12,829 bases of DNA from Desulfurobacterium sp. (lineage in GTDB: Bacteria > Aquificota > Aquificia > Desulfurobacteriales > Desulfurobacteriaceae): the NCBI GenBank assembly GCA_003978805.1, contig QNYI01000061.1, positions 1 through 12,829 on the forward strand, given 5' to 3'. The notes below the pieces were generated by a model. It was given only the letters and a program-made list of their open reading frames with translations. It was not told the origin of the DNA and did no database searches. Positions within the stretch are counted from its first letter, which is position 1. The number at the start of each line of letters is the position of its first letter. Made by a program: the position numbers and the translations under genes. Shown one piece after another: positions 5,358 to 10,119 of the stretch.

Positions 5358-5795
5358 TTATGCCACTTTCCCGAGTATTTTCTTAACAATCTCTTCAGCC
5401 ATCCTTTCAGCTTCGGCTTCAAGCTTTGCCTTCTCTGCCTCAAAAGAGTTCCAAATTTCCCTCTTTGCGCTTCCCAACTTGGCAGCAGCTTCCTCGTGGG
5501 CACGACGGAGAATCTCCTCCCTCTCGGCTCTGGCCTCCTTAACGGCCTCGTCAATGAGGGCTTTAGCCTTTGCTTTTGCCTCGTCCAGTACTTTATCCAC
5601 CTCCTTTAGCAGGCCTTCAGCTTTTGACCTAAGGGCCTCAATCTCAGAGTACTGGGCTTCAAGTTCCTTCTCCCTCTCCTCCATCAGGCTAAGGAGGGGT
5701 TGGAAGAGAAACTTGTTGAGGAGAACCATAAAGATTAAGAAGTTAACAGCCTGAACCACTAACGTTCCGTCTATTCCTACGATGCTCCCCGCCAT
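5358..5795 (-). CDS. atpF': F-type ATP synthase b' subunit
   Basis: This 145-residue protein is the first of the two b-type stalk subunits. The N terminus (VQAVNFLIFMVLLNKFLFQPL, about 14-34) is the characteristic single membrane helix with the conserved NF...NKFLF.P pattern. The rest is an uninterrupted Ala/Glu/Lys/Arg coiled coil ending IVKKILGKVA. Its ATG (5793-5795) overlaps the TAA stop of mnmA by one base (TAATG), and its ribosome-binding site (GGAG) lies within the last codons of mnmA, so its translation is probably coupled to mnmA. The a and c subunit genes that often precede b genes are not present upstream; mnmA takes that place. Confidence 0.93.
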   Translation of the reverse strand: MAGSIVGIDGTLVVQAVNFLIFMVLLNKFLFQPLLSLMEEREKELEAQYSEIEALRSKAEGLLKEVDKVLDEAKAKAKALIDEAVKEARAEREEILRRAHEEAAAKLGSAKREIWNSFEAEKAKLEAEAERMAEEIVKKILGKVA

Positions 5796-6829
5796 TACCC
5801 TTCTCCTTGCTTTGTGATTTCCCCGCCCCCAAGGAGGAGGTCACCGCTGTAAAAGGCACACACCTGCCCCGGAGCGGGGGCGTCAACTTTCGCCGCTAAT
5901 TTTACATAATAAAAACCGTTTTTTAAATACTCCACGGCACAAACCGGCACGGGACGAGAGCGGTACCTAACCTGAACCTGAAGGTTCTTAAGTTCCTTAA
6001 CTTCCTCGTACTCAACGTGCCAGTTTACCTTCCAAAGGTACAACGTATCTTTTAAAACATCTTCTTTCTCGCCGAGAACTACCCTGTTTTTCTCAGCATC
6101 TATCTCAACTACGTAGAGAGGTCTACCGTAAGAAATCCCAAGCCCTCTCCTCTGGCCAACGGTATAGCGATGATACCCTTTATGCCTACCGATAACCGTT
6201 CCGTCTTTCAGGACGAAAAACCCTTCCGAAGACCTTATAAACCGTTCCAAAAAGGATACGTAATCCCCATCTATAAAGCATATATCCTGACTCTCACTTT
6301 CAAAGTGAAACCCTAAAGCCTTGGCCTTCTCAACAACTTCTTCCTTAGTTAGCTCTCCCAGAGGAAGTAACAATCTTTCAAAGACGGACTGCTCAACGAG
6401 GGAAAGGAAGTAGGACTGCTCCTTCTTCCTGTCTTTTCCCCTGAAGATTAAACGCTTCTCCCATTTTTTTGAAAAATCAACACGGGCGTAGTGGCCGGTA
6501 GCTATGAAGTCAGCCTTTAGCTCTTTCATTAGAAGGAAGAGGTATTTAAGCTTTATCTCCCTGTTGCATACTGCACAGGGGTTAGGGGTGAGACCCCTTT
6601 TATAGTAACGGATAAAGTAGTCAACTACCTCCCGCTGAAAGGTGTTTGTAAGGTCAATAACGGAAAGTTTAAGTCCTAAGAGCTCTGCCGCTCTACGAGC
6701 TCTTTCGGCCGACGATTTCGGAGTAAGACGGAAGAATACGGGTATAACCTCGTATCCTTCTTCCTTTAGAAGGTGTGCCGTATAGAAACTGTCCACTCCT
6801 CCACTGAAACCGACAACGACCCTCTCCAT
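5795..6829 (-). CDS. mnmA: tRNA-specific 2-thiouridylase MnmA
   Basis: MnmA activates U34 of Glu, Gln and Lys tRNAs with ATP and replaces the 2-oxygen by sulfur. The 344-residue protein shows the PP-loop SGGVDS (9-14), TPNPCAVCN with the catalytic Cys85, the TGHYAR motif (111-116), EQSYFLSL (137-144), PLGELTKEE (156-164) and the second active-site cysteine in SQDICFI (Cys184). The C-terminal beta-barrel is present (RYRSRPVPV, APGQVCAFYSGD.LLGGG). It is slightly short: the segment between the first beta strand and AERARRAAELLG lacks the Cys-Cys stretch found in many homologues. The ATG at 6829 is the only plausible start, since an in-frame TAA lies five codons upstream, yet no Shine-Dalgarno sequence precedes it. 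It heads the atp operon and overlaps atpF' by one base. Confidence 0.95.
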   Translation of the reverse strand: MERVVVGFSGGVDSFYTAHLLKEEGYEVIPVFFRLTPKSSAERARRAAELLGLKLSVIDLTNTFQREVVDYFIRYYKRGLTPNPCAVCNREIKLKYLFLLMKELKADFIATGHYARVDFSKKWEKRLIFRGKDRKKEQSYFLSLVEQSVFERLLLPLGELTKEEVVEKAKALGFHFESESQDICFIDGDYVSFLERFIRSSEGFFVLKDGTVIGRHKGYHRYTVGQRRGLGISYGRPLYVVEIDAEKNRVVLGEKEDVLKDTLYLWKVNWHVEYEEVKELKNLQVQVRYRSRPVPVCAVEYLKNGFYYVKLAAKVDAPAPGQVCAFYSGDLLLGGGEITKQGEG

Positions 6830-6857: not shown

Positions 6858-6888
6858 AAAAAAAGAAGGGCGCCGGGATGGCGCCCTT
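6858..6888 (-). terminator. Strong intrinsic terminator upstream of mnmA
   Basis: On the minus strand AAGGGCGCC and GGCGCCCTT form a perfect 9-bp stem around the 5-nt loop ATCCC, followed by C and seven Ts (6864-6858). It has the full form of a Rho-independent terminator on this strand. On the plus strand the hairpin is followed only by TTTAAATC, so it is much weaker there. It lies 49 nt downstream of a promoter-like element and 29 nt before the mnmA start. It therefore either ends a short RNA or acts as an attenuator of the mnmA-atp operon. Confidence 0.88.
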
Positions 6889-6894
6889 TAAATC

Positions 6895-6929
6895 TGTGGG
6901 GAGGAGGGAGGGGGATAGGGGGGGTGTCT
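6895..6929 (+). other. G-tract cluster with G-quadruplex pattern on the plus strand
   Basis: The plus strand holds runs of 4, 3, 5 and 7 Gs (6898-6901, 6906-6908, 6910-6914, 6918-6924) with short loops of 1-4 nt, fitting the simple G-quadruplex rule of four runs of at least three Gs. For minus-strand transcription this is the template strand, so a folded quadruplex could slow RNA polymerase just after the putative start site; the RNA itself would be C-rich. The pattern is visible; folding in the cell is inference. Confidence 0.6.
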
Positions 6930-6936
6930 GCTATTA

Positions 6937-6964
6937 ATAATAGTTCTCATTCTCAGGTTGTCAA
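6937..6964 (-). promoter_or_regulatory. Sigma70-type promoter upstream of the C-rich element and mnmA
   Basis: The minus strand carries a perfect -35 box TTGACA (6964-6959), a 16-nt spacer and a -10 like TATTAT (6942-6937; ATTATT with a 17-nt spacer is an alternative). Transcription would begin near 6929. It is the best promoter match in the window and the only clear candidate to drive the eight-gene mnmA-atp operon, although the terminator at 6858-6888 lies between. Confidence 0.65.
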
Positions 6965-7036: not shown

Positions 7037-7459
7037 TTAAGATGCACCCCTTGACGCAAGCCAGTCCCGTAAAAAAAGGGCTGCCGCTATGTCGTCCAAC
7101 TCTTCCCTCTTTTTACCGAGTTCCCTACAGAGGTTCTTGGCCTCTAAGGTTGAGTAGGACTCATCAACGAAGATGAACTCAAGCTCTATCCCCCTCTCCT
7201 TTAAAAAGGAGCGGAACTTTGATGAAAACTTTCTTATCTTCTCCCCTATCTTTGTTTCCTTACCCTCCAAATTTATAGGGACACCTATAAGAACCGTGCC
7301 GACGTTCTTCTCCTTAACGACCTTAAGGAGCTCCTCAAAGGTTTCCCTGTTACTCTTCCTGTAAATAACTCTGTAAGGGTAGGCCGTTAACCTTAAAGGG
7401 TCTGAAAGGGCAACCCCTATTCTCTTAAAACCGACGTCAAGAGCCATTACCCTCTTCAA
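7037..7459 (-). CDS. ruvX: RuvX/YqgF-family putative Holliday junction resolvase (pre-16S rRNA nuclease)
   Basis: This 140-residue protein belongs to the RNase H-fold YqgF family, annotated as a Holliday junction resolvase and shown in E. coli to act in 5' processing of 16S rRNA. Motifs are ALDVGFKRIGVALSDP (6-21, with the first acidic residue Asp8), LIGVPINLEGKE (57-68), FVDESYSTLEAKNL (about 96-109, second acidic site) and ELDDIAAALFLRDWL (about 120-134, third acidic site). Length is typical. The start used is TTG at 7457-7459, 3 nt after the upstream stop, because AAAGGGG lies 6 nt before it; the ATG four codons in has only a 2-nt gap to its purine run and would trim the conserved N-terminal strand. 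Confidence 0.93.
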   Translation of the reverse strand: MKRVMALDVGFKRIGVALSDPLRLTAYPYRVIYRKSNRETFEELLKVVKEKNVGTVLIGVPINLEGKETKIGEKIRKFSSKFRSFLKERGIELEFIFVDESYSTLEAKNLCRELGKKREELDDIAAALFLRDWLASRGAS

Positions 7460-10024: not shown

Positions 10025-10119
10025 TGGCGGAGGCGGATGGGAATCGAACCCACCGTCCCGCCCTTGACGGGACCACCGGATTTGAAGTCCGGGGGGGACA
10101 CCAGCCCCCTTCCGCCTCC
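10025..10119 (-). tRNA. selC: tRNA-Sec (anticodon TCA), CCA encoded
   Basis: This 95-nt gene folds as selenocysteine tRNA. It has a perfect 8-bp acceptor (GGAGGCGG with CCGCCTCC), G73 and an encoded CCA (10027-10025). The D arm has a 6-bp stem (GGGGGC with GTCCCC) and a 4-nt loop. The anticodon arm is CCGGA-CTTCAAA-TCCGG with anticodon TCA (10085-10083). A long variable arm has a 6-bp stem (GTCCCG with CGGGAC), and the T arm has the loop TTCGATT. The 8+5 acceptor/T arrangement, 6-bp D stem and long extra arm are the bacterial tRNA-Sec features and separate it from tRNA-Ser or a suppressor. It implies SelA, SelB, SelD and selenoproteins elsewhere in the genome. It lies 45 nt downstream of the PHP gene on the same strand and touches the gatA stop. 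Confidence 0.97.

Follow-up and report, generated by a model that had tools for sequence, protein, structure and literature searches.

A predicted small RNA gene of the Desulfurobacteriaceae with an invariant C-rich core and a FUR-type operator-like promoter

FUR-controlled and C-rich small RNAs

Small RNAs (sRNAs) under the control of Fur occur in both Gram-negative and Gram-positive model bacteria. In the RyhB, PrrF and NrrF class, the sRNA is encoded by a stand-alone gene, a FUR-family operator is found at its promoter and the genome encodes Hfq. In another group, formed by the alphaproteobacterial CCUCCUCCC anti-Shine-Dalgarno sRNAs and RepG of Helicobacter, a C/U-rich region displayed in hairpin loops targets G-rich leaders. 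Trans-acting sRNAs normally drift fast during evolution. The RNAs that most resemble the one presented here come from Gram-positive bacteria and are described in passages of a single paper. FsrA of Bacillus subtilis is a Fur-repressed sRNA whose C-rich motif binds Shine-Dalgarno sequences and which uses the proteins FbpA, FbpB and FbpC; IsrR of Staphylococcus, an iron-sparing RNA of 174 nt found genus-wide, has Fur boxes in its promoter, three C-rich regions predicted to be single-stranded and three stem-loops besides the terminator (PMC9410917). The same passages deal with sRNAs controlled by Fur or Fur-like proteins in model bacteria, and state that most sRNAs are poorly conserved (PMC9410917).

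The locus described below was found in a stretch of 12,829 nt of Desulfurobacterium DNA, analysed as a whole and called here the window. The Desulfurobacteriaceae, to which this organism belongs, are deep-sea, heat-loving bacteria. Several features of the FsrA/IsrR class were found in the sequence of the locus: an operator-like site over the -10 hexamer, a C-rich region predicted to be unpaired, a terminator, and a stand-alone gene without a reading frame. With FsrA, going by its description, the locus shares the FUR-type operator-like site and the C-rich motif, with no match in Rfam; where FsrA uses the three Fbp proteins (PMC9410917), the Desulfurobacteriaceae encode Hfq as a candidate helper. 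With IsrR, as characterized in those same passages, it shares the FUR-type promoter site, the predicted single-stranded C-rich region and the conservation, and it differs in that the predicted RNA is only about 72 nt long, with a single C-rich tract and with the terminator hairpin as the only structure of the window copy. With RyhB, PrrF and NrrF the locus also shares a stand-alone gene, a promoter with an operator-like site and, in the family, genomes that encode Hfq; unlike these RNAs, it has a C-rich, anti-Shine-Dalgarno-like pairing region, and it lacks a match in Rfam. As compared with the alphaproteobacterial sRNAs and RepG, the C-rich motif is here a 5' single strand rather than a hairpin loop, and the type of operator differs. 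We class the locus as a new predicted sRNA of the FUR-controlled, C-rich and probably Shine-Dalgarno-blocking kind.

No Rfam family matches positions 6858-6964. When hits with E values up to 1 are admitted, the only ones in the window are a tRNA-Sec and, below threshold, a Leu_leader at 1-38. Lechner et al. (2014) catalogued the non-coding RNAs of the Aquificales with two Desulfurobacteriaceae in their genome set, and proposed novel candidates for Aquifex aeolicus; word searches of its main text yield no mention of the present RNA (PMC4227106). The open-licence full-text literature returned no sRNA of Thermovibrio or Desulfurobacterium and no Fur-linked sRNA in the Aquificota, the match obtained on the latter terms being concerned with cyclic di-GMP. 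If the assignment made here is right, C-rich sRNAs would seem to have come under FUR-type control more than once.

We propose from the sequence, with a probability of roughly 70%, that the locus encodes a trans-acting sRNA repressed by a FUR-family protein and pairing through its C-rich core with Shine-Dalgarno sequences. A FUR-family repressor, sensing either iron or peroxide, would bind the operator over the -10 hexamer and keep the gene off; upon loss of iron or oxidation of the sensor by peroxide, it would leave and the sRNA would be made at the same time as a peroxiredoxin and the products of the iron-sulfur assembly operon of the SufC type, joined in some genomes by one of the two FUR-family regulators. 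The unpaired core would then pair with the G-rich Shine-Dalgarno regions of target mRNAs, probably with the assistance of Hfq, and block their translation. This suggests an RNA that lowers protein synthesis when the cell meets metal or oxidative stress.

Anatomy and conservation of the unit

The whole unit, a promoter followed by a C-rich tract predicted to be unpaired and by a terminator, extends from 6964 to 6858 on the minus strand. It lies between two genes of the same strand, ruvX/yqgF upstream (7037..7459; 70.9 bits with TIGR00250, cut-off 43.25) and mnmA downstream (5795..6829; 342 bits with NF001138, cut-off 284). The -35 hexamer TTGACA (6959..6964) is separated by 16 nt from the -10 hexamer TATTAT (6937..6942), and the two, which hold 11 of the 12 consensus letters, make up the top promoter-like site of the window. 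The predicted sRNA of about 72 nt (6858..6929, minus strand), the start of which we infer from the -10 hexamer and the end of which is placed at the last T, carries near its 5' extremity the 24-nt C-rich core CCCCTATCCCCCTCCCTCCTCCCC (6898..6921, minus strand) and finishes with an intrinsic terminator (6858..6888, minus strand), in which a 9-bp hairpin with a 5-nt loop (6888-6866) is followed by a C and seven Ts. ATG, GTG and TTG were looked for as start codons in the predicted window RNA and none is present, so a coding function was rejected. All these elements had been recognized in the sequence-only reading, which spoke of a TTGACA with a -10-like TATTAT, a 9-bp hairpin with seven Ts, a transcript devoid of reading frame and a C-rich single-stranded segment; the last of these is borne out as a prediction, the mean unpaired probability of the core being 0.99 in the window copy. 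One detail of that reading needs amendment. The terminator does stand immediately before mnmA, but 28 bases, and not 29, separate the T-run from the ATG at 6829. The downstream mnmA-atp operon is secure as far as MnmA is concerned, since the profile score exceeds its cut-off, whereas the gene that follows matches models of the F0 b'/b subunits with scores below their cut-offs.

Folding of the predicted RNA (74 nt given) produces the terminator hairpin and nothing else, with a free energy of -18.1 kcal/mol (z -4.28) that none of 200 shuffled sequences equalled. Among the 21 copies found in the family (see below), the mean unpaired probability of the core ranges from 0.75 to 1.00, and the terminator, the sole helix common to the copies, is predicted in 20; the contig carrying the remaining one (L043) ends inside the hairpin. 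By eye, a C-G pair occupies in the hairpins of L051-L053 the place of a G-C pair in the remaining copies, and the T-run of L054 is short (TTT). A short closing stem, AGAC with GUCU, is possible in some copies and absent from that of the window.

The core was searched for, with up to two mismatches, in 136 genomes obtained from a search of the phylum. The sequence-only reading had named a lack of conservation in close relatives as a refutation, and the outcome was the opposite: of the 22 genomes of the family to which the window belongs, 21, representing all seven genera, each have a single, exact copy of the core. None of the 114 Aquificota genomes outside the family has it at that threshold, and a reversed control pattern gave no match in the 136 genomes. 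The family genome without the core (G015) is 83% complete and split into about 300 contigs. A collection of named sequences returned 10 records with the exact core, all of them titled Desulfurobacteriaceae, Desulfurobacterium or Thermovibrio; judged by their length, at least 8 of the 10 are contigs already present in the genome search, and the records served to name taxa and were not added as cases. In the alignment of 20 copies (L043 left out), 25 consecutive columns are invariant between variable flanks. The same block was met upstream of mnmA in relatives when that sequence was read. For comparison, the MnmA proteins of these relatives are 52-70% identical to that of the window, and 83% in a genome of the same genus. 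It is uncommon for a trans-acting sRNA to keep 24 nt unchanged over seven genera, and owing to this identity a single Northern probe should serve all 21 genomes. TTGACA lies upstream of the core in every one of the 21 copies.

Wider homologues were sought with a looser pattern (TATTAT, a gap, then CCCTCCTCCC), which matched in 14 genomes outside the family as against 10 for its reversed control, i.e. without clear excess. They were rejected. Of two matches that were read, one (L234) resembles coding sequence by eye and the other (L235) is unexplained. The latter, in a genome of another family (about 540-620 of L235; G082:C34:3237-3267), shows after TATTAT a different C-rich stretch, CTCCCTCCCCTCCTCCCCCTACCCC, facing a G-rich segment able to fold back on it; this could be chance or an unrelated analogue.

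The operator-like site and its counterparts

A feature that escaped the sequence-only reading is the conservation of the promoter beyond its hexamers. The -10 hexamer is embedded in an operator-like block, ATGAGAACTATTATTAATAG (6931..6950, minus strand), delimited by column conservation in 20 of the 21 copies (L050, whose row is one base short, was omitted from the column counts, and for L042, which has two operator copies, the second served as anchor). In these 20 copies, the 3' half of the spacer, ATGAGAAC, and the adjoining TATTATTAATA are nearly fixed, with some variation inside TGAG, while the eight letters that follow TTGACA are much less conserved than the hexamers. The distance between the -35 and -10 hexamers is 16 nt in 18 copies and 17 nt in two, and it is longer in L042 because of a tandem copy. 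Since the sigma factor does not read the spacer in this way, and the TG of the conserved block lies off the extended -10 position, the conserved half of the spacer needs another explanation.

The FUR family recognizes a 7-1-7 palindrome with the consensus TGATAATnATTATCA. A site of this type, TGAGAACTATTATTA, covers the -10 hexamer of the window copy together with the 3' half of its spacer (6949-6935, minus strand), with 11 of the 14 letters of the consensus (shuffle p 0.012). Sixteen of the 21 copies hold 11-12 of the 14 letters, with shuffle p values of at most 0.026 when both hexamers are held fixed; in the other five (L050-L053 and L059) 9-10 letters match, which does not rise above shuffles (p 0.06-0.35). 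As the copies belong to related organisms, these p values are not independent of each other. The promoter block thus resembles a FUR-family operator, and control of the sRNA by a protein of this family appears very probable from the sequence.

Candidate regulators are present. FUR-family genes were found in all 22 genomes of the family, and 21 of these have two. One protein of each paralogue was inspected (in G000 and G017): the NCBIfam models for PerR and Fur both match them, always below cut-off, and both proteins have an aspartate at the tested position of the peroxide operon regulator in PDB 2fe3. We take this position to be D104 of PerR, needed for peroxide sensing. Hfq is encoded in 21 of the 22 genomes; it was not found in the window's own genome, which is 62% complete.

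Similar sites precede other genes. The sufC locus was located by tblastn in all 21 genomes (its best NCBIfam match is SufC, below cut-off), and in 19 of them the best FUR-like site upstream of the gene falls at -88 to -94, with p values of 0.05 or less in 13 of the 21. In the window's own genome the site is TGAGAATCATTTTCG at -90 (L292, p 0.025); that of G016, TGATAACTATTATTA, does not differ in any letter from the sRNA sites of G001, G014, G019 and G021. Upstream of the cysteine peroxiredoxin gene, 11 of 14 loci have a site with p of 0.05 or less, eight of which lie at about -48 to -56 and three, of a somewhat different palindrome, at -26. The genes for the FUR proteins themselves were read at 16 of 20 loci: in raw letter counts, the box upstream of the second paralogue has 9-13 of 14 letters in eight loci (at least 11 in three), and that upstream of the first has 8-11 in the eight others. 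The sites shared by the sRNA, sufC and the peroxiredoxin may therefore mark a small regulon, although the same sites can also be read otherwise, as discussed below. Because of the aspartate and of the sufC and peroxiredoxin sites, a PerR-like or mixed signal and a signal of iron alone seem, on this sequence-based view, equally likely.

In 19 of the 22 genomes, a peroxiredoxin gene with one in-frame TGA (L311-L320 among them), whose product is 78-84% identical to the cysteine query, is a selenoprotein candidate. In 4 of 10 such loci that were read, TGAAAATTATTTTCA or a variant differing in one letter scores best among the upstream sites, at 25-31 nt before the start. The window carries a tRNA-Sec gene (10029-10119, minus strand; 84 bits, also called by ARAGORN), and the organism therefore probably reads some UGA codons as selenocysteine. 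FUR-like boxes were also noticed directly upstream of gpmI, the gene for phosphoglycerate mutase, in three genomes (L103, L097 and G009:C1:586290-586320), with two boxes in tandem in G009, a possible metal control of glycolysis. In G006, a strong FUR-like box, TGAGAACTATTATCA, precedes by about 20 nt the gene for a B12-binding radical SAM protein (L109 1-1482; TIGR03960-like, below cut-off), and a weaker one stands before a similar gene in G002 (L096).

The promoter site can be looked at differently, by supposing that the sRNA is genuine and that the conserved spacer is bound by a regulator outside the FUR family, responding to neither iron nor peroxide. This would agree with the weak match to the consensus in five copies, beside the 11-12 of 14 letters in 16, and with the situation at feoA, where the best upstream match among 21 parsed loci has only 7-10 of 14 letters and no box is discernible (several feoA starts were misread). 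It would also agree with the genome-wide counts of box-like sites, which are hardly raised over the reversed control in G009 (97 versus 86) or in 800 kb of G018 (13 versus 10). Over the family the hits sum to 225 versus 145 for the reversed control, the first number being inflated because palindromic sites count on both strands. What makes such a regulator quite unlikely is the company that the site keeps: it has an almost fixed place before sufC in 19 of 21 genomes, is found upstream of the peroxiredoxin gene in most, and is a clear box before one FUR paralogue in some, a distribution typical of a FUR/PerR regulon.

The core, its targets and its gene neighbours

Within the core of the proposed FUR-repressed, Shine-Dalgarno-pairing sRNA lies CCUCCUCCCC, the complement of strong ribosome-binding sites. 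Pairing of the core with Shine-Dalgarno sequences is, on this basis, probable. Predicted targets were analysed in G009 (1501 genes) and in 800 kb of G018 (810 genes), with starts taken from a simple ORF caller. When the 7- and 8-mer complements of the core were counted near start codons, only Shine-Dalgarno-like words stood out, and not those of the CUAUCCCCC part. The strength of pairing is correlated across 430 orthologue pairs (r 0.400), a value reached by none of the altered cores in three sets (0/60, 0/60 and 0/80). The correlation stems from the Shine-Dalgarno-like 3' part of the core, which alone gives 0.407, and the tail of 16S rRNA alone comes close with 0.373; it is therefore to be read as a reflection of conserved ribosome-binding sites, and not as pointing to named targets. 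The 20 best conserved pairs are not specially strong, 25/60, 12/60 and 6/80 altered cores reaching the same. Proteins with iron-sulfur, radical-SAM or haem motifs, a crude proxy for iron-dependent targets, are not enriched among the best-pairing starts of G009 and G018, and the radical-SAM proteins of G018 pair nominally worse (p 0.033), opposite to what is expected of iron targets. An iron-sparing role in the narrow sense is considered less likely than not.

A bolder version of the proposal would see in the core a constant mimic of the anti-Shine-Dalgarno sequence, competing with the 16S tail for ribosome-binding sites at large and acting as a global brake on translation in these thermophiles under metal or peroxide stress. 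Such a role would account for the freezing of 24 letters over seven genera, for the way in which the core's 3' part follows ribosome-binding sites conserved between two genera, and for the lack of any prominent functional class among the targets. We regard it as speculative and, on balance, unlikely.

C-rich unpaired RNA is a classical ligand of Rho, and the core, being long, predicted to be unpaired and unusually constant, could be imagined to act on a protein instead, the sRNA serving as a sponge that holds Rho, a KH/S1-type or some other C-binding protein. Proteins that bind C-rich RNA generally accept an altered spacing and changes of single U or A letters, a latitude hard to reconcile with 24 letters invariant in 21 genomes, and the presence of the complement of strong ribosome-binding sites within the core likewise argues for pairing with mRNA. 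A protein sponge is accordingly judged very unlikely.

The sequence-only reading had left a choice between an independent C-rich sRNA and a terminator that every transcript of the downstream operon must pass, and the gene neighbourhood supports the former. In the second case, transcripts starting at the TTGACA promoter would read through the terminator, which would set the levels of MnmA and ATP synthase. The arrangement seen in the window is indeed frequent: in 13 of the 21 genomes, mnmA follows the unit within 210 nt and on the same strand, and an ORF resembling the b'-type subunit of ATP synthase follows mnmA, by eye, in most of the loci read there. The position is not fixed, though. The unit is 0.86-2.0 kb from mnmA in three genomes (G018, G020 and G021) and elsewhere in four (G010-G013), one further copy (G002), at a contig end, being left undecided; in the seven genomes where the unit is not beside mnmA, the core, the promoter and the terminator are nevertheless kept. 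Downstream sequence is available for 20 copies, and in seven of these (L051-L054, L059, L061 and L062, the last counted by treating as spurious a forward ORF that overlaps the sRNA) the gene that comes next runs in the other direction. The upstream neighbours vary between genera. Moreover, the window copy has no predicted hairpin that would compete with the terminator. Where mnmA adjoins, words resembling a separate -10 hexamer for this gene (TAGAAT, TAAAAT, TAAACT) can often be seen by eye beyond the T-run. Relocation of this kind would not leave an attenuator in function, and we reject a leader of the mnmA-atp genes as highly improbable. A MnmA reading frame suspected in G011 of containing an internal TGA proved to stop only at the gene end.

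Promoter, core and terminator, by contrast, are kept together in 21 of the 22 family genomes (in one of these copies the contig ends inside the hairpin). As the unit is intact, single-copy and set in several different gene neighbourhoods, it is almost certainly a free-standing sRNA gene. Taken alone, the window would be weak evidence for it, since promoter-like sites (6, shuffle mean 7.5) and terminator-like sites (15, shuffle mean 16.8) are no more numerous there than in shuffled sequence; that a promoter and a terminator merely happen to flank a C-rich stretch can nonetheless be dismissed, because the exact core in 21 of 22 genomes, with its conserved promoter and hairpin, raises the unit well above chance. 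In G001, the promoter of the unit (L042) carries a tandem duplication of 21 bp comprising the operator and the -10 hexamer, near what appears by eye to be a transposase fragment.
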